Of a DNA stretch of 64,000 bases, positions 19,207 to 32,313 are shown in pieces. The notes below the pieces were generated by a model. That model worked only from the letters and a program-made list of their open reading frames with translations. It made no database searches and was not told the origin of the DNA. A program made the position numbers and the translations under genes. The stretch spans positions 1-64,000 of the forward strand of contig NZ_JALGYW010000007.1 of NCBI RefSeq assembly GCF_023111095.1, given 5' to 3'. How positions within the stretch are numbered: position 1 is the stretch's first letter; the number at the start of each line of letters is the position of its first letter. Source of the DNA: Maribellus sp. YY47. GTDB lineage: Bacteria > Bacteroidota > Bacteroidia > Bacteroidales > Prolixibacteraceae.

Positions 19207-20463
19207 TCACGGTTTCAGCCCCATCGCCTGAATGTATTCATCGTTAACTGTACAATTTTTGAATCGGCAGTTTTCGATGAATTCAAGCATGGCTTTTTTC
19301 ACCACCTCCTGGTCGGGACGGGCAGCACGAATTTCGGCAAAACTACTTCGCGGAGCTTCGGTAAACTCAACGATTACCTCCCAGTTTTCGGGGGTTGGAA
19401 TGGTTGCCATTCCGCGTTCACTTCCCATCTTTTTATAGGGCCAGTAGGTGTATCCAATGTTATTGCGGATCATCAGCCGGGTCCAGGCCGAAATCCACTC
19501 GTTGGTGTTCTCGCCTGTTTCACCCATAAACATAGGCAGGTTTACCGAGTCCCTGAAATCAACAAAATCCTGAATATTGGCCTGCAGCGTATCGCACCAG
19601 TAGCGGTGGCAGGAGTACATGATGTTGTCATCAAACTTCGAATCGGTAAAAACGCTGAAGTTGCTGTTCCACTGCGCACCTCCGAGCATAATAATATGGT
19701 TGTTATCTACCTCGCGAATAGCTTCAACGGCCTTCATATAAACCGGTTCAAGTTGCTTGTTCAGCATTTCCCGTTCTTCTCCGGTAAAATGTGTTGCAAT
19801 GGGTTCATTTAACAGGTCGTAACCTAAAATCACGGGCTCATTTTTATAATGATCGGCAATTCTTTTCCAGATATCGACAAATAGTTTCTGACTGGATTCG
19901 CTTATCATCAGCCACGGATAGCCGTAGCTGTCGTCAATGTTGTCGCCCGTTTGTCCGCCGGGAGCATCGTGCATATCAAGTATCAGGTAAATCTCCGACA
20001 CGCGGCACCATTCCACCAAACTGTCCAAACGTTGAAATCCATCCTGATCACGGGTTAGGCCCATGTAATCTTCATCGGTAAAAAGTTTGTAGTGAAAAGG
20101 TATTCGAATGGTATTGGCACCCGTACTTTTAATGTATTGAATATCCTCCCGCGTTACGTAATTGTCTTTGAACTGCTTCCAGAATTCATCGACAAAATCG
20201 GGCCCTACCATTTCGCGAAATGCCTGATCAATCAACCTGGCCGAGTTGGTTTTCCGGAATTGAAACATATAACCTTCGGGATTCAGCCAATTCCCCAAAT
20301 TCGTGCCCTGAATAAAAAACTTGCTCCCGTCAGGAGCGAGCAGATCAGGTCCGCTAATGGTAATGAATTCAGGCTCGGGATTGCTTACCGGTGTTGTTTT
20401 ACAGGAATAAAAGGCAGCCACCAGTACTGCCAGTAAAATGATCAGTCCAGCATGTCTCTTCAT
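19207..20463 (-). CDS. GH5-family glycoside hydrolase lipoprotein
   Basis: A 418-residue lipoprotein (signal ends FYSC21) with a GH5 (beta/alpha)8 barrel. Catalytic residues are visible: general acid/base Glu220 in Y-D-L-L-N-E-P and nucleophile Glu314 in M-G-E-T-G-E. The barrel's first strand G-T-N-L-G-N-W-L and the D-M-H-D-A-P-G-G segment (about 163-170) fit GH5 endoglucanase/exo-1,3-glucanase types. The substrate is a beta-linked glucan or mannan; the subfamily cannot be set by eye. It is flanked by unrelated genes and its last codons nearly touch the convergent M48 gene. Confidence 0.9.
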   Translation of the reverse strand: MKRHAGLIILLAVLVAAFYSCKTTPVSNPEPEFITISGPDLLAPDGSKFFIQGTNLGNWLNPEGYMFQFRKTNSARLIDQAFREMVGPDFVDEFWKQFKDNYVTREDIQYIKSTGANTIRIPFHYKLFTDEDYMGLTRDQDGFQRLDSLVEWCRVSEIYLILDMHDAPGGQTGDNIDDSYGYPWLMISESSQKLFVDIWKRIADHYKNEPVILGYDLLNEPIATHFTGEEREMLNKQLEPVYMKAVEAIREVDNNHIIMLGGAQWNSNFSVFTDSKFDDNIMYSCHRYWCDTLQANIQDFVDFRDSVNLPMFMGETGENTNEWISAWTRLMIRNNIGYTYWPYKKMGSERGMATIPTPENWEVIVEFTEAPRSSFAEIRAARPDQEVVKKAMLEFIENCRFKNCTVNDEYIQAMGLKP

Positions 20464-21887: not shown

Positions 21888-22661
21888 CTATTCGTTCAGC
21901 AACGAAGCGCTTTCGCCGTCCAAAAACAGAATGGCTTTAGGATGCTGGCGCAAAGCCGTTGAGGGATAGTTCTGATCGACCGTTTGCGTTAACGTTTTTT
22001 GAACAGCCCATGCCTTGGTAAGCCCCGGAACCATACAAAATACAGAAGCAGGACGCATTAAAGTGGGCACCGTAAGTGTAAGTGCATGCGTTGGAACTTC
22101 CTCAATCGCAGTAAAACATCCGTCGTTTACCTGCTGCTGACGGCACGAGAGATCCAGGTCAACCACTTTTACGGTTTCCGGATCGTTGAAATTAGCCACA
22201 TGCGGATCGTTAAACGCAATGTGTGTGTTTTCGCCAATTCCCATACAAACAATATCAGGCTGAAAACCATTCAGCAGTTCGGTATAGCGCACACATTCCT
22301 GCTGCGGATCATCAGCGAGTCCGTTCAAGTAATGTACTTCATGGAACGGCACTTTATCAAATATCCGTTCTTTCAGGAAATTTCCAAAGCCCTGCGGGGC
22401 GTCTGCCGGGAGCCCAATGTACTCATCCATGTGAAAGGCAATCACACGTTGCCAGTCGATGCCCGGCTGAGCGATTAAAGCCTCCAAAAATTCGTTTTGT
22501 GAAGGCGCTGCGGCAAAAATCATACTGATGCGCTCGCGTTCGTCCAGCAAAGTACATATGGTTTCAGCCACCATAAAGGCTGCACTTTCGCCCATTTCGC
22601 GGCGAGTGGAATATATTTTTACAGAAAGGCTATCTTTCTGAAGTTCGGTTTTTATCTTCAT
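21888..22661 (-). CDS. NagB-like glucosamine-6-phosphate deaminase with altered active site
   Basis: A 257-residue sugar-phosphate isomerase/deaminase. Homologue-like sequence begins at MKIKTELQKDS (22661) rather than at the first Met of the frame (22694). The family block M-D-E-Y-I-G-L is present, retaining the Asp that acts as proton shuttle. The second block reads G-I-G-E-N-T-H-I-A-F-N-D-P. Against the E. coli NagB pattern G-x-G-N-D-G-H-I-A-F-N-E, this implies Asp141-to-Asn and Glu148-to-Asp while His143 is kept. A later C-R-Q-Q-Q-V-N-D-G-C-F segment belongs to the same divergent clade. It is last in the operon, directly after nagA, so it probably converts an amino-sugar phosphate made by that deacetylase. 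Confidence 0.85.
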   Translation of the reverse strand: MKIKTELQKDSLSVKIYSTRREMGESAAFMVAETICTLLDERERISMIFAAAPSQNEFLEALIAQPGIDWQRVIAFHMDEYIGLPADAPQGFGNFLKERIFDKVPFHEVHYLNGLADDPQQECVRYTELLNGFQPDIVCMGIGENTHIAFNDPHVANFNDPETVKVVDLDLSCRQQQVNDGCFTAIEEVPTHALTLTVPTLMRPASVFCMVPGLTKAWAVQKTLTQTVDQNYPSTALRQHPKAILFLDGESASLLNE

Positions 22662-22747
22662 TCTTTCAATTTTGTACAATGATTTTACAAGCAAATTGGT
22701 TCCCCAAAAATTACTGCTCCTTTCATTGACTTTTTTATTCTGGTCTG

Positions 22748-23932
22748 TTATAAATTTTGATAGATCATATCGCCTTTTACCAAAGTAGCCAACACCCGAA
22801 TATCAGCATCAAAAATGGTGATGTCGGCATCTTTCCCAATGGTCAGGCTTCCTTTTTGTTTTTCTACACCTGAAATTCGTGCGGGTGTAGAGGTGATCAT
22901 CTGCACGGCATGCAACAGCGGCACCCCCGCCAGCTCGATCATGTTTCGCACCAGGCGGTCGGCCGTAGCCACACTTCCGGCAAATGCAGTACGATCGGGC
23001 AATTTGGCAACGCCATCTTCCACCAAAACGGGCATCCCGTCTTTTGTACTTCCAAGTATGCTTTCGCTTACTTCCTGACCGGCAGCGCGCATCGAATCGG
23101 TTATTAGTGCAATCCGGTTCGGCCCCATTTGTTTGTAGATCAACTGCAACAAACTGGGCGGAAGATGCACGCCATCGGCAATAATTTCAACCGTTAACTG
23201 ATCGTATAAATAGCCACTTTCGATGATCCCGGCATAACGGAAAGCATTGCGACGGGTTACACCCGACATGGCTGAATAAAAATGCGTCAGGTGCGTATAG
23301 CCATTCTCCAGCGCCTCGGCCACCACTTCGGAAGTAGCGTCGGAATGAGCGATTGCCGCCAAAATTCCTCTTTTGCTCAATTCCCGGCCAAATTCCATGG
23401 CGCCGTCCAGCTCGGGAGCGGCACTCCAGCGAATAATATCCGACGATTGATTCAGCAAAGCCAGGTATTCATCGCGTTGCGGACTCCGGATGTAACGCGG
23501 GTCTTGTGCTCCTTTCTGACTCATGGCAAAATACGGTCCTTCGAGATGCAGCCCCAAAAACTGCGCGCCTCCGAAGTTCTCGCTTTTCACCTGCTTGTAC
23601 GATTCCAGCAGTTGCAACAGGTCTTCTTTTTCGGCCGTAAGCGTTGTAGGTACCAGCGCCGTTGTTCCAAAACGGGCATGCGTACGGGCAGCTTCGCGAA
23701 AAGCTTCAACCGTACCGTCCATAAAGTCGTAGCCACCGGCGCCATGCGTGTGCAGGTCGATAAATCCGGGGGAAACATAATTCCCCCCGGCATCCACTAC
23801 CTCTGAGTCCGGAAAAGATATATCTCCCGAACCTACTCCTATAATTGTCCCATTTTCAATCAACAAGGTTCCGTTCTCAATAACCCGGAACGGAGTTATC
23901 AACTTCCCGTTTATTATTTTTATCCGTTTCAT
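22748..23932 (-). CDS. nagA: N-acetylglucosamine-6-phosphate deacetylase
   Basis: A 394-residue amidohydrolase. Metal-site and substrate motifs in order: H-T-H-G near residue 60, H-L-E-G-P-Y near 128 (metal-binding Glu), A-H-S-D-A (metal His), T-H-F-Y-S-A-M (variant of T-H-L-F-N-A-M) and I-T-D-S-M-R-A-A-G (catalytic Asp). The enzyme removes acetate from GlcNAc-6-phosphate in the cytosol. The motif variants suggest a divergent subgroup that may take a modified amino sugar. Position between the sugar transporter and the NagB-like gene supports a phosphorylated intermediate, but no kinase is present in the operon. Confidence 0.92.
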   Translation of the reverse strand: MKRIKIINGKLITPFRVIENGTLLIENGTIIGVGSGDISFPDSEVVDAGGNYVSPGFIDLHTHGAGGYDFMDGTVEAFREAARTHARFGTTALVPTTLTAEKEDLLQLLESYKQVKSENFGGAQFLGLHLEGPYFAMSQKGAQDPRYIRSPQRDEYLALLNQSSDIIRWSAAPELDGAMEFGRELSKRGILAAIAHSDATSEVVAEALENGYTHLTHFYSAMSGVTRRNAFRYAGIIESGYLYDQLTVEIIADGVHLPPSLLQLIYKQMGPNRIALITDSMRAAGQEVSESILGSTKDGMPVLVEDGVAKLPDRTAFAGSVATADRLVRNMIELAGVPLLHAVQMITSTPARISGVEKQKGSLTIGKDADITIFDADIRVLATLVKGDMIYQNL

Positions 23933-23965: not shown

Positions 23966-25273
23966 CTAGGCTGCCACACCTGGTCTCCACCGTTTGATCC
24001 GGTAACCATAAGCAGCAAAGAAAACCAGGTACATGTAACATGGAATTAAAATCAGGTAGGCCGAACGCACGCTAAAATGATCGGCCATTATTCCGTACAA
24101 TACCGGAGTGAGAGCATTACCACACAAGCCCATAATCATGATGGAAGAACCGAGTTTGGTAAAACGTCCAAGCCCTTTGATGGCCAGGGGCCAAATGTTT
24201 GCATAGATCAGCGAATTGGGTAGCCCCAACGCTGCCAAAAACCAAATGGAGATATCGGTTTGGTGCCCAAATACGTTAACCGATCCGCTAAAGATCAGCA
24301 CCGCTGCAGATAACACCAGTCCAAGTAAAGTACAAACCAATAGCGCATTTCGCTGATTAATAAAACGCGGAATGGTGATCACTCCCACGAAATAACCACA
24401 CATGGTTGCGCCCAACACATACGAAGGAAACACTTTGGCTTCAAGCAAATCCAGTCCCATGGTACGCGCGTAGCCAATAATGGTATCGATGGCAATGATT
24501 TGCGACCCCACATGAAAAAATATGGCCAGCGCTCCTAAAACCAGGTAGGGAAACTGGAAAATACTGGTTTTGCCATGTTCACCTTCCGCCAGTTCTTCTT
24601 TGTTCGATTGTTCGGTATTCAACTCGGGTAGCGGCGAAAAGCGAACCAATATGCCCACTGCAACCAGCATCACTCCCAATACCGAATAAGGAAAAATCAC
24701 TCTGCGGATCAGCTCATCGAGCAGGTGGTTTTTCTCGGCCACAGCCAGCGTTCCGCTTTCGAGTGTCCGGAACAGTTCACTGTCGGTTACCTTCAGTACA
24801 ACAGCAGCAAAAACCAGCGGCGCCAGAATACCGGCTATCTTGTTACAGATTCCCATAATACTGATGCGCTGTGCAGCTCTTTCAATCGGGCCCACAATGG
24901 TCACATACGGATTGGCCGCTGTTTGCAGTAAAGCCAGTCCGGTTCCGATCAGAAACAAACCGGAGAGAAACACCGGGTATGCCCGGGTTAAGGCTGCCGG
25001 AACAAACAAAAATGCGCCGATAGCCATCGAGAAGAATCCAATCATCATACCTTTTTTAAAGCCCACCTTATCCAGCAAAAGCGAAGAAGGTACCGACATA
25101 AAAAAGTAAGCCACATAAAATGCAAAGGCCACCAGGTACGATTGGAAGTGCGTTAATTCGCAGGCAATCTTAAAATATGGAATCAGGATGGCGTTGACCC
25201 AGGAGACAAAGCCAAAAATAAAAAACATGAGTCCAAGGATTGCGATCGATATAATTGATGTTTTGTTTTTCAC
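23966..25273 (-). CDS. FucP/NagP-type sugar:H+ symporter (MFS)
   Basis: A 435-residue inner-membrane protein with about 12 hydrophobic segments and a long cytoplasmic loop around 215-235 rich in Glu. It follows the FucP/NagP/GluP pattern of Bacteroidota: F-F-I-F-G-F-V-S-W-V-N-A at helix 1, followed by L-L-Q-T-A-A-N-P-Y-V-T. These transporters take up monosaccharides (fucose, GlcNAc, glucose or galactose). The neighbouring nagA and nagB-like genes point to an N-acetylated amino sugar. This is inference from context. Confidence 0.9.
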   Translation of the reverse strand: MKNKTSIISIAILGLMFFIFGFVSWVNAILIPYFKIACELTHFQSYLVAFAFYVAYFFMSVPSSLLLDKVGFKKGMMIGFFSMAIGAFLFVPAALTRAYPVFLSGLFLIGTGLALLQTAANPYVTIVGPIERAAQRISIMGICNKIAGILAPLVFAAVVLKVTDSELFRTLESGTLAVAEKNHLLDELIRRVIFPYSVLGVMLVAVGILVRFSPLPELNTEQSNKEELAEGEHGKTSIFQFPYLVLGALAIFFHVGSQIIAIDTIIGYARTMGLDLLEAKVFPSYVLGATMCGYFVGVITIPRFINQRNALLVCTLLGLVLSAAVLIFSGSVNVFGHQTDISIWFLAALGLPNSLIYANIWPLAIKGLGRFTKLGSSIMIMGLCGNALTPVLYGIMADHFSVRSAYLILIPCYMYLVFFAAYGYRIKRWRPGVAA

Positions 25274-25314: not shown

Positions 25315-26910
25315 TTAGATAATCTTTTTATTTACTTCGTCCCACTCCACGCATCGTTTTTCAACATAAGCGCGGTGAGCCATAATACAGGTAATACCTT
25401 CTTCAAAAGCCATGTCGATATTGGCGCTGGTTGTTCCGCCGTTTCGAATACAACCCAGCCACTCTCTCAGGTGAAGGTGCGTTACATCAACATTTCTCCC
25501 GTTAAGAGTGGTTGTTGTAAGTCCGCGCGAAGCATAATATTTCTCAGAAGCCGAACTCACTGCATCAATTTGCTGTGAAGCCGGATTGTAAGTTAAAAGT
25601 GGCGAGCCGGTATCGATCGCCCCCGATTTTATTTGCTCTTTGTAACGTGTCGATCCCGAATCGGCATGAATGATGACATTGCTTCCGAGTTCCATCGAGG
25701 CATCGTGCCCCATAAAAACCCGTCCGCGGCTGCGACTCGATGCCAGGTTTCCGCTGTACATCAGCGTAAGGTCATGTTTCGGATATTCAAAAACACAATT
25801 CAGCGAATCGGGCATTTCGCGGCCGTCTTTCCAGAAGTACACCCCGCCTGACGAAACCACTGATTTTGGAATACCCACACGTAGCAGCTGATTTACCGCA
25901 TCAAATTCGTGGGTAAACAATTGCCCGATCATGCCAGTATCGTAATCAAACCATTGAGTCCAGTTGTAAAAACGTTCCACACTAAAGGGCACCTCGGGCG
26001 CTTCGCCAAGCCACTGTTTCCAGTCGATGCTTGATTCGCTGCCGGGTTTCAGGTTTCCTTTGGCATCGAGATGCCTCACCCAGGCGCCGTTTGCCGAATT
26101 CCGGTTCGATGTGGTTTCGATCAGGGTAATTTTGCCAAGAATATTCTTTTTGACAATTTCTTTGGCTTGCTGAAAGACCACACTTTGCGGAATTTGATGA
26201 CCGAGCTGAAAAACAACCGCGCTGTTTTTTACGGTGGCGTACAACTCGTTGAGCTCGTCTTCGTGAAGCGCCACACTTTTCTCGCAATAAATGTGTTTTC
26301 CGGCTTTTGCCGCATCAATCGAAATGCGGGCATGATGGTGATCGGGCGTCGCCACAATCACGGCATCAATGTCTTTGTCGGCCAGCATTTCGTGGTAGGT
26401 GCGATAGCGTTTTACCGGTAATTTGGGAGCGCTGTTGCCTCCCGGGCGCGTATAGTTTTCGGCAGTAGCCAGTCCGTCTTCGGCATGGTTATCGAAAACA
26501 TCGCAAATGCCTGTGATGGCTACATTCAAATACTCCTGTTGCAACCAGTCGTTAAGCAAATTTCTTTGCTGCCACGATTTCATATCCTCGGGATGAATAA
26601 AACCGAGCGCACGCGATAATTGCCGGGCACGCGTGCCAAAGCCGATAAATCCGACCCGGATTAAGTCGCCCTGCGGTTTCGTTTGTCCGTAATCTGATTT
26701 TGGAAGCTCCAGCGAATCCAGGCCCAACTCTTTTATAATGGAATTCTTTTTAGAAAGATCGTACTCCCGCTTATTGAGTAAGCCGATTCCAAACAAGCCC
26801 AAAACAGGCAATCCGGCCATCGCTTTCAAAACAGTTCTCCGTTTCATATCCCGGTTAATTCCAAGATTTTCGCGTAACGAAGGTCCCTGATCCGTTTTTT
26901 TATCACTCAT
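25315..26910 (-). CDS. Gfo/Idh/MocA-family oxidoreductase with Tat-like signal
   Basis: A 531-residue enzyme with an N-terminal K-R-R-T-V-L-K twin-arginine-like motif (about 23-29) and a following hydrophobic stretch (L-P-V-L-G-L-F-G-I-G-L-L), so it is probably folded with cofactor and then exported. The Rossmann dinucleotide site is V-G-F-I-G-F-G-T-R-A, and the catalytic Lys-containing block reads H-I-Y-C-E-K-S-V-A-L (Lys-Ser rather than the usual Lys-Pro). The C-terminal alpha/beta domain has a D-Y-D-T-G-M-I-G-Q-L-F-T-H-E-F-D segment. The substrate is presumably a sugar or inositol. It is adjacent to doxX (1-bp gap) in the operon. Confidence 0.88.
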   Translation of the reverse strand: MSDKKTDQGPSLRENLGINRDMKRRTVLKAMAGLPVLGLFGIGLLNKREYDLSKKNSIIKELGLDSLELPKSDYGQTKPQGDLIRVGFIGFGTRARQLSRALGFIHPEDMKSWQQRNLLNDWLQQEYLNVAITGICDVFDNHAEDGLATAENYTRPGGNSAPKLPVKRYRTYHEMLADKDIDAVIVATPDHHHARISIDAAKAGKHIYCEKSVALHEDELNELYATVKNSAVVFQLGHQIPQSVVFQQAKEIVKKNILGKITLIETTSNRNSANGAWVRHLDAKGNLKPGSESSIDWKQWLGEAPEVPFSVERFYNWTQWFDYDTGMIGQLFTHEFDAVNQLLRVGIPKSVVSSGGVYFWKDGREMPDSLNCVFEYPKHDLTLMYSGNLASSRSRGRVFMGHDASMELGSNVIIHADSGSTRYKEQIKSGAIDTGSPLLTYNPASQQIDAVSSASEKYYASRGLTTTTLNGRNVDVTHLHLREWLGCIRNGGTTSANIDMAFEEGITCIMAHRAYVEKRCVEWDEVNKKII

Positions 26911-26911
26911 C

Positions 26912-27412
26912 TTATTTCTCCTCCTTCTTTTTTTTCCATCCCGCCATCAGTGCATCCATTCCCAAAATTCTGGAAGTTGGGAAAAAGGCGAGTACAGCCA
27001 GTGCAAAAGCCTCGATCAGCGTTTTATTGACAATCAGGTTGTTCCCATCGGCCGGCAACGAGTATTCGATACCCACCAATGGCGGACAATTGAAGTAATA
27101 CACCACCAATAGCACAAATCCGGACAGTGCAGCAACTCTGAAAAACATCCCCAGAATAAGCCCCAGCCCGATGGCAATCAGCCCCCAGGTATTCAGGAAA
27201 TCAACCGCACTCAGGATCGACGGATCGCTGATCACCCATTTCGCAAATCCGGATAAAATCCACTGCGATTCTTTTAAAAATCCGATGGATGACCATTGTG
27301 GATTCAACAGTTTTGCAATCCCTTCGTACAACAGGTGCCATCCGATCAGAAATCGCAAGGCCATCAGAAAAAGCAGTTGCCAACGGGTATAAGTATTTTT
27401 CATGTTAAGCAT
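26912..27412 (-). CDS. DoxX-family inner-membrane protein
   Basis: A 166-residue protein with four predicted membrane helices, beginning M-A-L-R-F-L-I-G-W-H-L-L-Y-E-G-I-A-K-L and ending in a Lys-rich tail (K-K-K-K-E-E-K). The pattern is that of DoxX/DoxD-like proteins, which in some systems pass electrons from a substrate oxidoreductase to quinone. A second ATG three codons in (27403) is also possible. It lies between two Tat-signal oxidoreductases, with 1 bp and 21 bp spacings, which suggests that it works with them. Confidence 0.88.
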   Translation of the reverse strand: MLNMKNTYTRWQLLFLMALRFLIGWHLLYEGIAKLLNPQWSSIGFLKESQWILSGFAKWVISDPSILSAVDFLNTWGLIAIGLGLILGMFFRVAALSGFVLLVVYYFNCPPLVGIEYSLPADGNNLIVNKTLIEAFALAVLAFFPTSRILGMDALMAGWKKKKEEK

Positions 27413-27433
27413 CGAAAAAGTAAATCAAGGGTA

Positions 27434-28777
27434 CTACAATTTCATTTCCCAGCCTTTTTCATACTCACGTGTCCACAGTTTGCTGGCTTCCTTGTCTTTT
27501 ATGATATGTCCGTTAGTCGGATCAATGTCCAAAGAACGGCCTACACGCTGAGCAATATTTCCCAACTGCACCAGGAGAGTACTTTTGTGTCCTGAATCAA
27601 TATCCGATCTAAGTTTTTCTCCTTTTAAAATGCCGTTAAAAAAGTTTTGAATGTGCAAAGCATCCAACTGCTGAGCAGGGCTGGCGGCATTACGCGGATC
27701 AATTTTAGCTTTGTCTTCTACTTTTTTAAGTTCTTTCCCGGCATTGTCGAAAAGGGTGTATCCGTTTCCTCCGGTAATCAGTAAAGAACCTTTATCGCCG
27801 TAAAACATGGCACCAACCGACGAACCTTCAATAGGGCTGCCGTTGCAGCTGCGCCCCTCCCAGGTCATGGTAAAGCCTTCTTCAAAATCCATACTGATTA
27901 CTTGTGTATCGGGCGTTTCCCAGTCGTCCTGATAATGGTATCTTCCTCCGTTTGAGCTTACACGAACGGGGTAATTCACTTCCATTCCCCAGCGCAGCAA
28001 GTCGACCATGTGTGTTCCGTTATTTAATGCTTCTCCGGTACCCCAGCGCCAGAACCAGTGCCAGTTATAATGTACAAAATTATCTTTAAACGCTGTACGC
28101 GGAGCCGGTCCTTGCCACAGCTCCCAGTTCAACCAGTCAGGAACAGCTACATTTTGTCCAACTCCAATTGATGCACGGGTATTGGTATACCAGCTTTTCC
28201 CAAAATAGGGTTTCCCGATGGATCCAGCTTTAATTTCCTCGATTCCTTTAATCACGTTAGGCCACGAACGACGCTGATTTCCCATCTGCAAAACCCTGCC
28301 GTAACGAGCAGCAGCTTCCACCAGCATTTCTCCCTCTGCAGGACTGTGACTACAGGGTTTCTCCAGGTAAACCTCTTTGCCGGCTTTCATGGCGAGCAAA
28401 GCTGCCGGTGCATGCCAGTGGTCGGGTGTTGCAATAACCATCGCATCAAGGTCTTTATCCTCTAATGCTTTCCTGAAATCGCCATAGATTTTAGGACGAC
28501 TCGCTGATACTGCTGAAACCTCTCCAACACAGCGTTCTGCAGCTCTGCTGTCGACATCCGAAACCGAGATTAAATTACAATTTTCCTGCATTGCAAAGTT
28601 TTTTGCCAATGCCAATCCCCTGGAGTTAACTCCAATTGAGCCCACATTAATCCTATCGTTGGCTCCTAAAATGTTCCGGTAGCTTTTTGCAGCCATTCCT
28701 GGCAAAATTCCGCCAAATGATAAAGCTGCAGTTCCAAGTGCTGCTGTTTTTATAAAGGTTCTTCTATTGTTTTCCAT
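27434..28777 (-). CDS. Tat-exported Gfo/Idh/MocA-family oxidoreductase
   Basis: A 447-residue enzyme with a clear twin-arginine signal (N-R-R-T-F-I-K followed by A-A-L-G-T-A-A-L). The dinucleotide-binding start is I-N-V-G-S-I-G-V-N-S-R-G. The catalytic Lys-Pro pair lies in V-Y-L-E-K-P-C-S-H, and an active-site-like N-N-G-T-H-M-V-D-L-L-R-W follows. It belongs to the exported glucose-fructose-oxidoreductase-like group, where NAD(P) is bound tightly and recycled. A GH109-type NAD-dependent hydrolase was considered, but the expected His-Gly-rich catalytic segment is not apparent. It is the third gene of the operon. Confidence 0.9.
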   Translation of the reverse strand: MENNRRTFIKTAALGTAALSFGGILPGMAAKSYRNILGANDRINVGSIGVNSRGLALAKNFAMQENCNLISVSDVDSRAAERCVGEVSAVSASRPKIYGDFRKALEDKDLDAMVIATPDHWHAPAALLAMKAGKEVYLEKPCSHSPAEGEMLVEAAARYGRVLQMGNQRRSWPNVIKGIEEIKAGSIGKPYFGKSWYTNTRASIGVGQNVAVPDWLNWELWQGPAPRTAFKDNFVHYNWHWFWRWGTGEALNNGTHMVDLLRWGMEVNYPVRVSSNGGRYHYQDDWETPDTQVISMDFEEGFTMTWEGRSCNGSPIEGSSVGAMFYGDKGSLLITGGNGYTLFDNAGKELKKVEDKAKIDPRNAASPAQQLDALHIQNFFNGILKGEKLRSDIDSGHKSTLLVQLGNIAQRVGRSLDIDPTNGHIIKDKEASKLWTREYEKGWEMKL

Positions 28778-28794: not shown

Positions 28795-29820
28795 TTATAA
28801 TTTGATTTTCTTTTTGCTCTCTTTCTCTGCCTTTTTCATCACATCGGCAATTGAAACCGGGACTCCCCCTTTTTTCTTACTTAGATCGGCAGCTTCCATG
28901 AAGGCCAATATTTCCAGCGTTTCTTCTTTTATTACCGGCACTTCTCCTGTTTCAAAAAAATGTACAATTTTATCCAGCAAAGGAGTATATCCGTTGTAAG
29001 AACCTAATGAAAGAATGCCTTTCTCTCCGTAAACAACACCACCGTATCCATCTTTTCCGCTACGAATTCCGCGAAACGAGCCAATTCTTCCGCCAGCCCA
29101 GGTTCCCACTGTCACATCAGTATCCGGCGTGTTAATACGCACTACCGTTTCACAACCGGTTCCCATTGCGGTAAACAAAGTTTCTACCCCGTGAATTCCG
29201 TACCAAAAGAAATCGGGATGTGTAGCTTCCAGTTTACAGGGGCTGTATGTTTCGGCGCCTAGCACTTTACCGATACTTCCGCTGGCAACTTCATCCATCT
29301 TAACAATGTAACGAAGCGACGAAGCCGAAAAAACAGGAAGATTATAGTGTTCTGCTGCGCTAAAAATTGCCATTGCATCGCTTAACGATGCGGCCATCGG
29401 TTTATCAATAAACATGCGTTTCCCGGCAGCCAGTACCGGCAACGCCTGCTCCAGGTGACGGCGACCATCGTTTGTTTCCAACAGCACCACGTCCACTTTG
29501 GTAAGTAATTCTTCAACAGAACCTACGATCTCCACATCAAGTTGCTTCATTTGCTGAGTATAGCCTTCAATCCGGTCGACTGCCGACTTAATATCCAAAC
29601 TTCCCTGCGGATAAGCCGCCACCACTTTATAATTCAGAAAAGTATCTCCGGCCGATGGGTCATTCATCGCCTTTGTAAAAGCAATACTGTGTGAGGTATC
29701 CAGGCCAATAATTCCTACCCGTTTCCCTTTCAACACCGGCTGCGCGATGCTAAAACTGCTCAAAAAGGCCATTACTATCAGCAATACGCCTACTTTCATC
29801 GAAATCAATCTTTTAGTCAT
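28795..29820 (-). CDS. Exported Gfo/Idh/MocA-like oxidoreductase (short form)
   Basis: A 341-residue protein with a Sec-type signal (V-L-L-I-V-M-A-F-L-S-S-F-S-I-A-Q). The domain start is R-V-G-I-I-G-L-D-T-S-H, where the usual second and third Gly of the nucleotide loop are replaced by D-T-S-H. This 'DTSH' variant recurs in a distinct Gfo/Idh/MocA branch. The conserved Lys-Pro pair is present (M-F-I-D-K-P-M-A). Because the loop is altered and the protein is exported unfolded by Sec, NAD(P) use is uncertain. It is the second gene of the operon, 17 bp upstream of the Tat-type paralogue. Confidence 0.82.
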   Translation of the reverse strand: MTKRLISMKVGVLLIVMAFLSSFSIAQPVLKGKRVGIIGLDTSHSIAFTKAMNDPSAGDTFLNYKVVAAYPQGSLDIKSAVDRIEGYTQQMKQLDVEIVGSVEELLTKVDVVLLETNDGRRHLEQALPVLAAGKRMFIDKPMAASLSDAMAIFSAAEHYNLPVFSASSLRYIVKMDEVASGSIGKVLGAETYSPCKLEATHPDFFWYGIHGVETLFTAMGTGCETVVRINTPDTDVTVGTWAGGRIGSFRGIRSGKDGYGGVVYGEKGILSLGSYNGYTPLLDKIVHFFETGEVPVIKEETLEILAFMEAADLSKKKGGVPVSIADVMKKAEKESKKKIKL

Positions 29821-29844: not shown

Positions 29845-31071
29845 TTATTGTCCTTCCAGTTTGTTCTTGCGCTTCAAAAAATAGCTAAAAAACGCATATA
29901 TCTGCTTATTCGATTCTTTATTCGGAGCATGTTCCGGCCGGTTGGTCATGCCCACTCTCCCGTTATATCCGAGTAATGCATTCACTTTCACGGCATGATT
30001 TAATGCCACCCAGCGTTCGGGCGGGTCTTCCGAACCTCCCGATACCAGGAAGGGTCGCGGAGCCATCAAAGCGTGCAGTTCCGTCAGATTATATCCCTCC
30101 GTTCTAAGTTTCGGATAAAGTCCCCTGGCCGGATTATCTTCCGTAATCATTCCCCTTTTTCTCCACGGTTTGGGATGATAACCCAGATACCAGGGCTCCC
30201 AGTAATTTACAGACTCACGCGATTCTTCGAAAACAATCCCGGGATCGGACCAAACGGCACAGGCAAACTTCTCGTACAAACACGATGCAAACATGGCCCA
30301 CTTTCCGCCAAACGAATGTCCCACAATTCCAATCCGGGTAGAATCAACGCCTTCAACCCGGGCTAACACATTCCAGGCATTGGCTGCGGCATAGCCCAAC
30401 ATCGACAACGGCTGAACCTGTGCATTCTCAATTGAAGGATAATACAGCGAAAAGTTATTGGCTTTTGATGCCTCGCGCGTTCCCAACGACAAGGTAACAA
30501 AACCGCGCTGCGTAAGTTGATTGGCAAAATCGCGGTAAGGCTTCGCTCCTTCGGCTCCGATAGCCGTCTCGGGCTCATAATAAACCGTAATTACCGCAGG
30601 CTTTAGCCCTTCGCCATCCGGCACCAGCAGATAGGCATCTGTTTTCTCGTTGGGTGTCCAGTAAAAACGAATGTGATGTTGCGTGAAATTTTCGCGCCGA
30701 GTTGTCTCCAAATACTCTGGTTCCTGATTTTTAATGATCGCCGGCCACTCTCCCATCATCCCATGCCAGCGAGTAAGTATTTCGTTTCTGCGGTTGCTCC
30801 AGTCAGTAGTTGTTTTTACCGGAGTACCATCATAAAATTCAAGAGGAGAACGCAATTCACCATACGCCTCTGCATATTTTTCAGGAGGGCAAAAAACCGA
30901 ATCCGGAAGCCGAGGTGCAGTATCTTGTTCTGTGATCTTAATCTCACCGGCGCGAAAGAATGATCCTGCCAGATTCTGACCGGCTTTTCCGGCAATACCG
31001 GCACCGCGAAAAAGAAGGAAAGCAAACGCTACTCCGATCGGTATAAGCACAATTATCATGAATCTTTTCAT
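29845..31071 (-). CDS. Exported alpha/beta hydrolase (acetyl xylan esterase / dienelactone hydrolase type)
   Basis: A 408-residue protein with an N-terminal hydrophobic signal or anchor (M-I-I-V-L-I-P-I-G-V-A-F-A-F-L-L). The nucleophile elbow is G-H-S-F-G-G, a candidate acid region is V-S-G-G-S-E-D-P-P-E-R-W, and the catalytic His is probably in R-P-E-H-A-P-N. This order fits carbohydrate esterases related to AXE1 and glucuronoyl esterases, although the CE15 elbow sequence is not matched. It would remove acyl groups from an incoming oligosaccharide. It is the first gene of the operon, directly behind the LacI operators. Confidence 0.8.
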   Translation of the reverse strand: MKRFMIIVLIPIGVAFAFLLFRGAGIAGKAGQNLAGSFFRAGEIKITEQDTAPRLPDSVFCPPEKYAEAYGELRSPLEFYDGTPVKTTTDWSNRRNEILTRWHGMMGEWPAIIKNQEPEYLETTRRENFTQHHIRFYWTPNEKTDAYLLVPDGEGLKPAVITVYYEPETAIGAEGAKPYRDFANQLTQRGFVTLSLGTREASKANNFSLYYPSIENAQVQPLSMLGYAAANAWNVLARVEGVDSTRIGIVGHSFGGKWAMFASCLYEKFACAVWSDPGIVFEESRESVNYWEPWYLGYHPKPWRKRGMITEDNPARGLYPKLRTEGYNLTELHALMAPRPFLVSGGSEDPPERWVALNHAVKVNALLGYNGRVGMTNRPEHAPNKESNKQIYAFFSYFLKRKNKLEGQ

Positions 31072-31272: not shown

Positions 31273-32313
31273 TCAATCTGCGGTAAGCTTCTGTTTTAAG
31301 GTCGACTCCCTCACCACCAAATCGTTTCGAATAATAATGGTTTCCGATGCAATATCCTCCTGAGGTTGTTCAATCTGACGAATCACCATTCGGGCAGCTG
31401 CCTGCCCCATTTCAAACGCATGGTCGTCGATAGTTGTGAGTGCCGGCTCTACAATCAACGACACGGGTGTATTACTAAAACCAACCACTGCCATATCATC
31501 TGGGACTTTGCATCCAGTTCTTTTGACTTCCTGAATAACACTGATGGCACTGGTATCGTTTGAACAAAAAACTCCGTCGGGACGAGATGGCATCTCCAGG
31601 AACCTTCGGGCGGCTAAGGCTCCTTCCTTGCCACTCAAGTCTTCGGTATAGTAAATCAATTCATCTTCCTGCGCAAGGTTGTTCCTTCGCAAAGCCTCCT
31701 GATAACCCCGCAGGCGATCTCTGAAAATAGCGATTTGCTGGTTTCCGGCCACATGCGCAATTCGCTTGCATCCGATCGAAATCAGGTGCTCGGTTGCTTT
31801 CATCGCTGCTCCAAAATCATCAATAACCACTTTGTGGGTTTCAAGCTCGTAACATACCCTGTCGAAAAATACCAACGGAACATTATTGTTTTTAAACGCA
31901 AGCAAATGATCGTAGTTATTGGTTTCCATCGCCAAACAGGCAATTACTCCATCGGCCTGGCTACTCATTAACATGCGTGCATTCTCTTTTTCTCTTTCGT
32001 AGGAATTGTTGGATTGGAAAATAACAACATAATACCCGGCTTTACTCGCCACTTCTTCAATACCACTAATGGCCGACGACTGAAAATGCCGGTCAATCCG
32101 GGGAATAATTACACCGATCAGGTTGGTTTTGTTTCTTCGGAGATTGGCAGCAAGTGAATTCGGGTAATATCCCAATTTTTCTGCGAGTTTATGCACCTCC
32201 TGGGTCATCTTCTTTCCGATACTGGGATGATTTTGCAGAGCCCTTGAAATGGTAGACGGAGAAACCTTAAGCCTTTCTGCCATCTCCTTAATTGTTACTT
32301 TTGACCTCTTCAT
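31273..32313 (-). CDS. LacI-family transcriptional regulator
   Basis: A 346-residue repressor or activator. The N-terminal helix-turn-helix V-T-I-K-E-M-A-E-R-L-K-V-S-P-S-T-I-S-R-A-L and hinge (L-A-A-N-L-R-R-N-K-T) are canonical LacI features. Residues from about 60 to the end form the periplasmic-binding-protein-like effector domain (N-L-I-G-V-I-I-P-R-I...; D-G-V-F-C-S-N-D-T-S-A). It is upstream of, and on the same strand as, the sugar operon. The two CAAACGTTTG palindromes between them are the likely binding sites. The inducer is presumably the sugar or sugar phosphate handled by that operon. Confidence 0.94.
   Translation of the reverse strand: MKRSKVTIKEMAERLKVSPSTISRALQNHPSIGKKMTQEVHKLAEKLGYYPNSLAANLRRNKTNLIGVIIPRIDRHFQSSAISGIEEVASKAGYYVVIFQSNNSYEREKENARMLMSSQADGVIACLAMETNNYDHLLAFKNNNVPLVFFDRVCYELETHKVVIDDFGAAMKATEHLISIGCKRIAHVAGNQQIAIFRDRLRGYQEALRRNNLAQEDELIYYTEDLSGKEGALAARRFLEMPSRPDGVFCSNDTSAISVIQEVKRTGCKVPDDMAVVGFSNTPVSLIVEPALTTIDDHAFEMGQAAARMVIRQIEQPQEDIASETIIIRNDLVVRESTLKQKLTAD

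Follow-up and report, generated by a model that had tools for sequence, protein, structure and literature searches.

In a 64,000-nucleotide stretch of Maribellus sp. YY47 DNA (contig NZ_JALGYW010000007.1, positions 1 to 64,000; hereafter the window), a gene for a DoxX-family membrane protein was found to form a conserved pair with its 3' neighbour, the gene of a Gfo/Idh/MocA oxidoreductase (Gfo1). We regard it as nearly certain that DoxX and Gfo1 work together. As to what they do, we give a probability of about 0.5 to the reading that DoxX is the electron-transfer, quinone-side subunit of Gfo1, which would be an anchored nicotinoprotein dehydrogenase. The occurrence of DoxX next to, or fused with, a predicted exported and anchored enzyme of nicotinamide type suggests an undescribed route from extracytoplasmic sugar oxidation into the respiratory chain.

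The DoxX protein (26912..27412, minus strand; 166 amino acids) was assigned via PF07681 (30.1 bits, cut-off 23.6) and subfamily alignments. Its gene is separated by 1 nucleotide from gfo1 (25315..26910, minus strand), which encodes a protein of 531 amino acids with a probable membrane anchor, the conserved partner, characterised via PF01408, gene neighbourhoods and a fold model. On the other side, 21 nucleotides away, lies the gene of a second Gfo/Idh/MocA oxidoreductase with an ordinary signal resembling that of twin-arginine translocation (Tat) substrates (Gfo2; 27434..28777, minus strand; 447 amino acids, PF01408 profile). Both oxidoreductases score above the PF01408 cut-off of 24, with 56.8 bits for Gfo1 and 57.3 bits for Gfo2. 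An earlier note on this DNA had described DoxX as flanked at these distances by two Tat-type Gfo genes, and the open reading frames lie exactly so.

A DoxX subfamily and its conserved partner

Alignments revealed that DoxX relatives with the signature GWH[FL]LYEG constitute a distinct subfamily. In the window protein the signature reads GWHLLYEG (residues 24-31; 27320..27343, minus strand; alignments of 18 and 59 sequences). R20, G24, W25, H26, L28, E30, G31, K34, W40 and E134 were invariant in all 18 aligned relatives, and in the 59-sequence alignment E30 was present in 59, E134 in 57 and H26 in 54. A phmmer search with DoxX against the PDB gave no match at E ≤ 10.

The neighbourhood of these genes was analysed in two samples: 198 genomes of the order (order set), and the best 80 loci, a non-random choice by similarity to the window DoxX, of at least 572 relatives found in named genomes with a pattern scan derived from the motif (named set). 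The order set holds 63 subfamily genes in 37 genomes; a 64th match, in a 38th genome (G004), was spurious, its open reading frame not being among those of locus L101, and was dropped. The best 80 named loci carry 81 DoxX genes and, according to the record titles, come from Bacteroidota, Chlorobiota, Marinimicrobia, KSB1, Aminicenantes, Latescibacterota, Sedimentisphaerales, Kiritimatiellales, Ignavibacteriales and others. The two sets overlap, with 123 DoxX tree rows corresponding to 119 different sequences and L036 and L126 probably being one locus.

In the order set, Gfo1 directly adjoins 36 of the 63 DoxX genes, lying 3' of DoxX in 33 cases (by its coordinates, L037 of G145 is one of these) and 5' in three, and another 24 are fused to a C-terminal soluble domain. 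Three are neither paired nor fused: L036 is an orphan, L066 has a transposase-like neighbour, and L076 lies at a contig end and is classed as 'other' although its frame continues into an anchor-like stretch. In the named set, 69 of the 81 DoxX have Gfo1 on the 3' side, 3 have a 5' Gfo of another type (L130, L135, L176), 6 are fused (two of them in L148) and 3 are neither (L120, L126, and L162 at a contig end). Locus L110, where the pair is read across two N, was considered as a single DoxX-Gfo1 fusion; this was rejected, since the two N sit at the expected DoxX stop, and the locus is counted as an adjacent pair.

For comparison, 31 profile-found DoxX loci (29 new ones plus L001 and L004, with the signature-bearing L002 and L003 left out) served as a control that covers loci only, most order-wide DoxX profile matches lying outside any locus taken. 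A Gfo neighbour was found for 0 of the 27 DoxX genes without the signature (flanks of about 1.5 kb, or less where a contig ends), as against the 36 of 63 given above; among the four control loci with the signature, three have an adjacent Gfo1 and one is fused. The DoxX-Gfo association in other genomes, which the earlier note had named as a check of its proposal, was thus confirmed for the subfamily. The order also contains a second, common type of long protein with a DoxX domain, encoded by open frames of about 370-470 amino acids; those in control loci lack the signature.

A close Gfo1 (E ≤ 1e-60) occurs in 33 of the 198 genomes, and all 33 also have the subfamily DoxX, where 6.2 would be expected (P ~ 1.6e-33, uncorrected for kinship). 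Pairwise distances of DoxX and Gfo1 were correlated (r = 0.76, n = 93; maximum of 1000 permutations 0.14), part of which is also expected from shared host ancestry.

Gfo genes on both sides of DoxX were found for 6 of the 144 DoxX (63 + 81), with the Gfo2 type in four loci (window, L102, L103 and L121). Gfo1 is thus the conserved partner and Gfo2 a local companion. The earlier note had linked both oxidoreductases to DoxX; this is supported for Gfo1 and not for Gfo2, whose type stands beside so few DoxX genes. Gfo2 is a distant relative of glycoside 3-dehydrogenases and, as judged from its signal, is probably a soluble periplasmic protein.

Some loci depart from the common arrangement. The order search gave as nearest relative of Gfo1 a protein (65%; G007:C58, L095 1312-2910) that keeps the anchor described below, has no DoxX beside it and adjoins a gene resembling, by eye, the nagB-like gene of the window operon. 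In another Gfo1-like protein without a DoxX neighbour (G125:C4, L096 4429-5808) the twin-arginine anchor is altered: its hydrophobic stretch contains an arginine and is not followed by a basic cluster. The subfamily DoxX of L036 (5955-6467) and L126 (6986-7498), 61% identical, has no Gfo nearby and lies between genes that are yebC- and secA-like by eye. In L066 (240-2676; G131:C105), a gene judged by eye to be transposase-like lies directly 3' of DoxX, at the place expected for Gfo1.

Twin-arginine anchor and DoxX fusions

The N-terminus of Gfo1 proteins reads RR-x3-K-x-L-A-x-x-P-x-x-G and continues with a short hydrophobic stretch and basic residues. In the window protein, twin arginine, hydrophobic anchor helix and basic residues span residues 24-50 (26761..26841, minus strand), as determined by alignment, the model being of low confidence here. 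R24, R25 and P35 were invariant in 50 of 50 relatives. Although both Gfo1 and Gfo2 have RR-type N-termini, the Pfam TAT_signal was reported for Gfo2 alone and below its cut-off (20.0 against 22.7), so that the twin arginine of Gfo1 rests on its conservation. TatC is encoded in the window's genome (228.2 bits), and Gfo1 thus combines, in sequence, the conserved twin arginine and the genomic Tat system expected for a Tat substrate. The P-x-x-G following RR was found in 86 of 93 Gfo1 and 20 of 23 fusions, whereas none of 23 Tat signals of BT2158 type has it; the 23 fusions are those in which the scan found RR, as it started too far in for 5 of 28.

The same element joins the two parts of the fused proteins. 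All 28 fusions examined (of 30) contain an RR inside the chain, followed by a helix and then by basic residues, with a mean of 2.68 lysine or arginine residues in anchor residues 21-27. Mean hydropathy of the best 17-residue stretch was 1.36 for the anchor and 1.25, 2.23, 1.58 and 1.74 for DoxX helices 1 to 4, respectively; the anchor was less hydrophobic than helices 2, 3 and 4 in 27, 20 and 25 of the 28 fusions. Since Gfo1 and the fusions share this twin-arginine anchor helix, their catalytic domains should be periplasmic. Regarding a cytosolic location of the oxidoreductases, which would have spoken against the earlier proposal, the export-type signals favour the periplasm as far as sequence tells.

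The topology predicted for DoxX agrees with this location. DoxX C-termini are basic (4.25 basic residues in about 20; 36 sequences) and the presumed outer loops are poor in basic residues (0.31 in 21 and 1.25 in 32; same sequences), which argues for both ends of DoxX being inside and the catalytic domains outside. In this predicted topology, the invariant polar residues lie mostly near the outer ends of the helices, a position that would suit a site for reoxidation by quinone.

In L003 (1480-2976; G000:C43) and 23 other loci of the order, an RR anchor connects DoxX with a soluble domain of barrel-like type. One Kiritimatiellales contig (L148) carries two near-alike fusion copies, with DoxX branches of 0.037 and 0.0085. 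A single origin of the fusions was not firmly supported by the DoxX tree (46/70). The fused domain gave no Pfam match in three proteins and no NCBIfam match in four proteins scanned; one fused protein had no phmmer match in the PDB at E ≤ 10, and the fused domain gave none with Foldseek at E ≤ 0.001. The model of this domain is weaker than that of Gfo1 (predicted local distance difference test score, pLDDT, 71.6; predicted template modelling score, pTM, 0.53), and structural comparison ranked aldo-keto reductases (AKRs) first (Z 13.2, root-mean-square deviation (rmsd) 3.8, 211 residues aligned), with a ribulose-phosphate epimerase at Z 12.0. The modelled domain is a barrel that resembles AKRs at best.

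Adjacency, co-occurrence, correlated divergence, fusions with a like anchor and export-type signals together sustain the functional link between DoxX and a Gfo/Idh/MocA oxidoreductase that had been proposed from gene position.

A candidate periplasmic dehydrogenase and competing explanations

The Gfo1 model (pLDDT 80.3, pTM 0.81, with the N-terminus including the anchor at low confidence) has the Gfo fold, the PDB comparison giving DgpA1 (9m3d) at Z 33.2, rmsd 2.6 and 329 aligned residues. Other top rows were 3db2 and YjhC, and the first 50 include levoglucosan dehydrogenase, NAD-dependent glycoside hydrolases (8qc8, Z 32.4) and glucose-fructose oxidoreductase (1ofg, Z 30.6). By sequence, the nearest solved relatives are the Alistipes glucoside 3-dehydrogenase structures 8tdf and 8tdh. 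The catalytic motif of Gfo/Idh/MocA enzymes consists of a lysine and Asp-x3-His; GxxGxG, K211 and H334 are kept in 50 of 50 Gfo1 relatives.

Many relatives of the pair lie among genes of 3-keto-glycoside metabolism, a pathway that is reportedly the subject of a 2024 Nature paper. Relatives of 3-keto-disaccharide hydrolase, of an IolE-like barrel or of a BT2158-type dehydrogenase were searched for with one query each (E ≤ 1e-5; for the BT2158 type E < 1e-100) in flanks of 6-7 kb that were often cut by contig ends, so that the counts are lower bounds. Such genes were found at 24 of 36 Gfo1-type loci of the order set, at 0 of 24 fused loci and at 0 of 3 others; in the named set they accompany 27 of the 71 loci that have a Gfo partner, none of 5 fused loci and 1 of 4 others. 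The DoxX-Gfo1 gene run of L043 includes a full BT_2158-family member (798.9 bits against 750); BT2158 itself is described as a periplasmic glycoside 3-dehydrogenase (PMC11300592).

From these features we infer that DoxX and Gfo1 may constitute one membrane-bound periplasmic dehydrogenase. Gfo1 would fold in the cytoplasm around its nicotinamide cofactor, be exported via Tat and stay anchored, its twin-arginine helix packing on the four-helix DoxX, so that the active site would be positioned above the periplasmic face of DoxX. There, a hydroxyl group of a sugar or glycoside would be oxidised, and the bound reduced cofactor would pass its electrons to the menaquinone pool via a conserved polar site of DoxX comprising His26, Glu30, Lys34 and neighbouring residues. 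To our knowledge, no free NAD pool is available to periplasmic nicotinamide enzymes outside the cytoplasm. Reoxidation of the Gfo1 cofactor by DoxX is plausible; it is not required, since Gfo enzymes can be redox-neutral and then need no outside acceptor, as exemplified by glucose-fructose oxidoreductase and NAD-dependent glycosidases.

Several observations weigh against DoxX as a quinone-side subunit. The 59-sequence alignment contains no conserved cysteine, and no flavin or haem motif was recognised in DoxX; electrons would therefore have to pass straight from nicotinamide to quinone, and we know of no proven precedent for such a transfer in a DoxX. Gfo1 is close to redox-neutral NAD enzymes (8qc series, 1ofg), and a self-contained enzyme fits equally well. 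At position 330, that of the catalytic aspartate, 31 of 50 Gfo1 relatives have D, 18 have Q (including Q330 of the window) and one has H. The pairing has its gaps as well: Gfo1 matches without nearby DoxX were found at G007:C58 and G125:C4, plus G046:C117 at a contig end, and DoxX without a nearby partner at L036/L126 and L120, with the transposase-like gene taking that place in L066. Among the loci that have a Gfo partner, 12 of 36 in the order set and 44 of 71 in the named set, the window included, showed no 3-keto-glycoside gene in their flanks. Finally, the fusion anchor only partly displays the weak hydrophobicity reported for the last helix of dual Sec-Tat proteins, falling below DoxX helix 1 in just 10 of 28 fusions.

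Among the competing explanations, DoxX might serve structure, assembly or export by keeping Gfo1 at the membrane, and Gfo1 might be a nicotinoprotein that regenerates its cofactor by itself in a redox-neutral reaction. We consider this unlikely, though it is the strongest rival. Close folds such as 1ofg (Z 30.6) and 8qc8 (Z 32.4) would suit it, as would the altered anchor of the DoxX-less L096, although the equally DoxX-less L095 keeps its anchor; however, the conserved intrahelical residues R20, H26, E30, K34 and E134 exceed the apparent needs of an anchor partner, and the same DoxX also serves a second, different soluble domain.

Electrons might also flow in the reverse direction, DoxX taking them from quinol to reduce the Gfo1 cofactor, and Gfo1 reducing a periplasmic keto-sugar or other carbonyl compound, much as MsrQ feeds MsrP. 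A Sec-inserted membrane protein with a Tat-exported partner, separate or fused, is the plan described for MsrPQ and NapGH (PMC5449189). Keto-sugars may be at hand, with 3-keto-glycoside genes close by at 24 of 36 Gfo1 loci of the order; against this, the nearest named Gfo1 relatives are mostly sugar dehydrogenases. In terms of redox potential, quinol is moreover a weak reductant for NAD, and the reaction would run uphill unless the potential of the bound cofactor were shifted. We hold reverse flow to be improbable.

Still less probable is a DoxX that moves a proton, sugar or keto-sugar across or out of the membrane, or helps to detoxify a reactive keto-sugar: DoxX function is poorly known and the operons contain transporters and hydrolases, but some operons carry their own major facilitator superfamily (MFS) transporters (window 23966-25273; L157), and a transporter would leave the shared anchor unexplained. 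The idea that the genes are neighbours by chance in a single lineage has next to no probability for DoxX-Gfo1, being refuted by adjacency, the 0 of 27 in the control, co-occurrence and the distance correlation, and stands only for the Gfo2 side of the trio (4 of 144 DoxX).

Returning to DoxX as an electron-transfer subunit, we tentatively extend this assignment to a widespread and as yet undescribed class of respiratory dehydrogenases. In this class, a periplasmic enzyme with a captive cofactor would be anchored by its Tat helix on DoxX and pass hydride equivalents directly to quinone; the same DoxX would serve interchangeable domains (Gfo1, a second Gfo type and the fused barrel-like domain), and the class would provide a missing electron outlet in 3-keto-glycoside pathways. 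If true, this would assign a role to a large DoxX subfamily with at least 572 relatives and to a fused domain that has no Pfam match, and the 3-keto-glycoside operons of Bacteroidota, Marinimicrobia and other phyla would gain an electron outlet. The two-gene module and its natural fusions make the reoxidation of periplasmic nicotinamide enzymes that are not redox-neutral amenable to testing.

The window operon and comparison with known systems

In the window, doxX and gfo1 belong to a tight run of genes on the minus strand, in the order alpha/beta hydrolase-like, gfo3, gfo2, doxX, gfo1, gluP/NagP-like transporter, nagA and nagB-like. The alpha/beta hydrolase-like protein (29845..31071; Pfam matches below cut-offs) is encoded by the first gene of this probable operon and is followed by Gfo3, another PF01408 protein (28795..29820; profile search); upstream lies a gene for a LacI-type regulator (31273..32313, minus strand; profile searches). 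On the 3' side of gfo1, an MFS sugar transporter of gluP/NagP-like type (23966..25273; TIGR01272, 248.4 bits against 202.55, the NagP model being below its cut-off), the N-acetylglucosamine-6-phosphate deacetylase NagA (22748..23932; TIGR00221, 276.1 bits against 225.65) and a glucosamine-6-phosphate deaminase-like, nagB-like protein (21888..22694; below the nagB cut-off) are encoded. Given the nagA and nagB-like genes together with the NagP/GluP-like transporter, the substrate in the window may be an amino sugar. No 3-keto-disaccharide-type hydrolase was found between positions 20000 and 34000.

Maribellus sp. CM-23 (L102) shares this gene order between the hydrolase-like gene and the transporter, beyond which lie genes of 394 and 256 amino acids, and a Prolixibacteraceae genome (L103) shares it until the contig ends inside the transporter. 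The window's genome contains three DoxX-Gfo1 pairs and one DoxX fusion (G000: C51, C15, C55 and C43).

Zymomonas glucose-fructose oxidoreductase shares the Gfo fold (Z 30.6) and is Tat-exported with its cofactor bound; it is a soluble, redox-neutral enzyme without a membrane partner. The BT2158 family (NF058561; Alistipes AL3, 8tdf/8tdh) belongs to the same superfamily and provides the best PDB sequence match of both Gfo1 and Gfo2, but the two proteins score 102.9 and 159.4 bits against the 750 of NF058561 and so fall outside it, and the anchor mark is found in 0 of 23 BT2158-type signals. LacABC lactose 3-dehydrogenase, described as performing membrane-bound periplasmic glycoside 3-oxidation beside 3-keto-disaccharide hydrolases (PMC9007349), is alike in setting; it consists of a different protein set, and the available main text of that paper makes no mention of DoxX. 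In the available portions of the literature on this pathway, the term 'electron acceptor' is absent from PMC9007349 and PMC11501099 and occurs in PMC11300592 only in a passage on FabX. Among open-licence papers, bioRxiv preprints not included, none was found that describes the present module or that joins DoxX with Gfo, Idh and MocA or with polysaccharide utilization.

On the side of DoxX, the window protein matched the DoxX profile alone at E ≤ 0.001, giving no match to the DoxD profile, and none in NCBIfam. DoxD and DoxX are families of similar name with a presumed common origin. Thiosulfate:quinone oxidoreductase (TQO; DoxD/DoxA), a DoxD-containing enzyme, uses a quinone (PMC8551704); Acidianus has its two subunits as separate proteins, whereas Acidithiobacillus has them fused into one (PMC8551704, PMC6335251). 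The present system resembles TQO in its split and fused subunits and, if our reading is correct, as a membrane enzyme coupling substrate oxidation to quinone; it differs in that DoxX is partnered with a Gfo/Idh/MocA protein or a barrel-like domain and lies amid sugar genes.

A parallel in design is offered by the dual Sec-Tat membrane proteins of a 2017 study (PMC5449189). Sec and Tat insert these proteins together; their last helix depends on Tat, is reported to be only weakly hydrophobic and precedes a group of basic residues, their folded cofactor domain lies outside, and split forms occur, such as MsrPQ and NapGH. Like these proteins (MsrPQ, NapGH, Rieske, Sco3746), the DoxX fusions carry RR within the chain ahead of the last helix and basic residues behind that helix, and fused and split forms coexist; unlike in the known cases, the hydropathy of the fusion anchor does not fall below that of DoxX helix 1, DoxX replaces the haem or iron-sulfur membrane part, and a nicotinamide-type domain replaces the molybdenum cofactor, haem or iron-sulfur domain. 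DoxX is not mentioned in the available main text of that study. We conclude that the plan of a quinone-side membrane part with a Tat-exported catalytic part, split or fused, is known, and that its version with DoxX and a nicotinamide-type dehydrogenase appears to be new.

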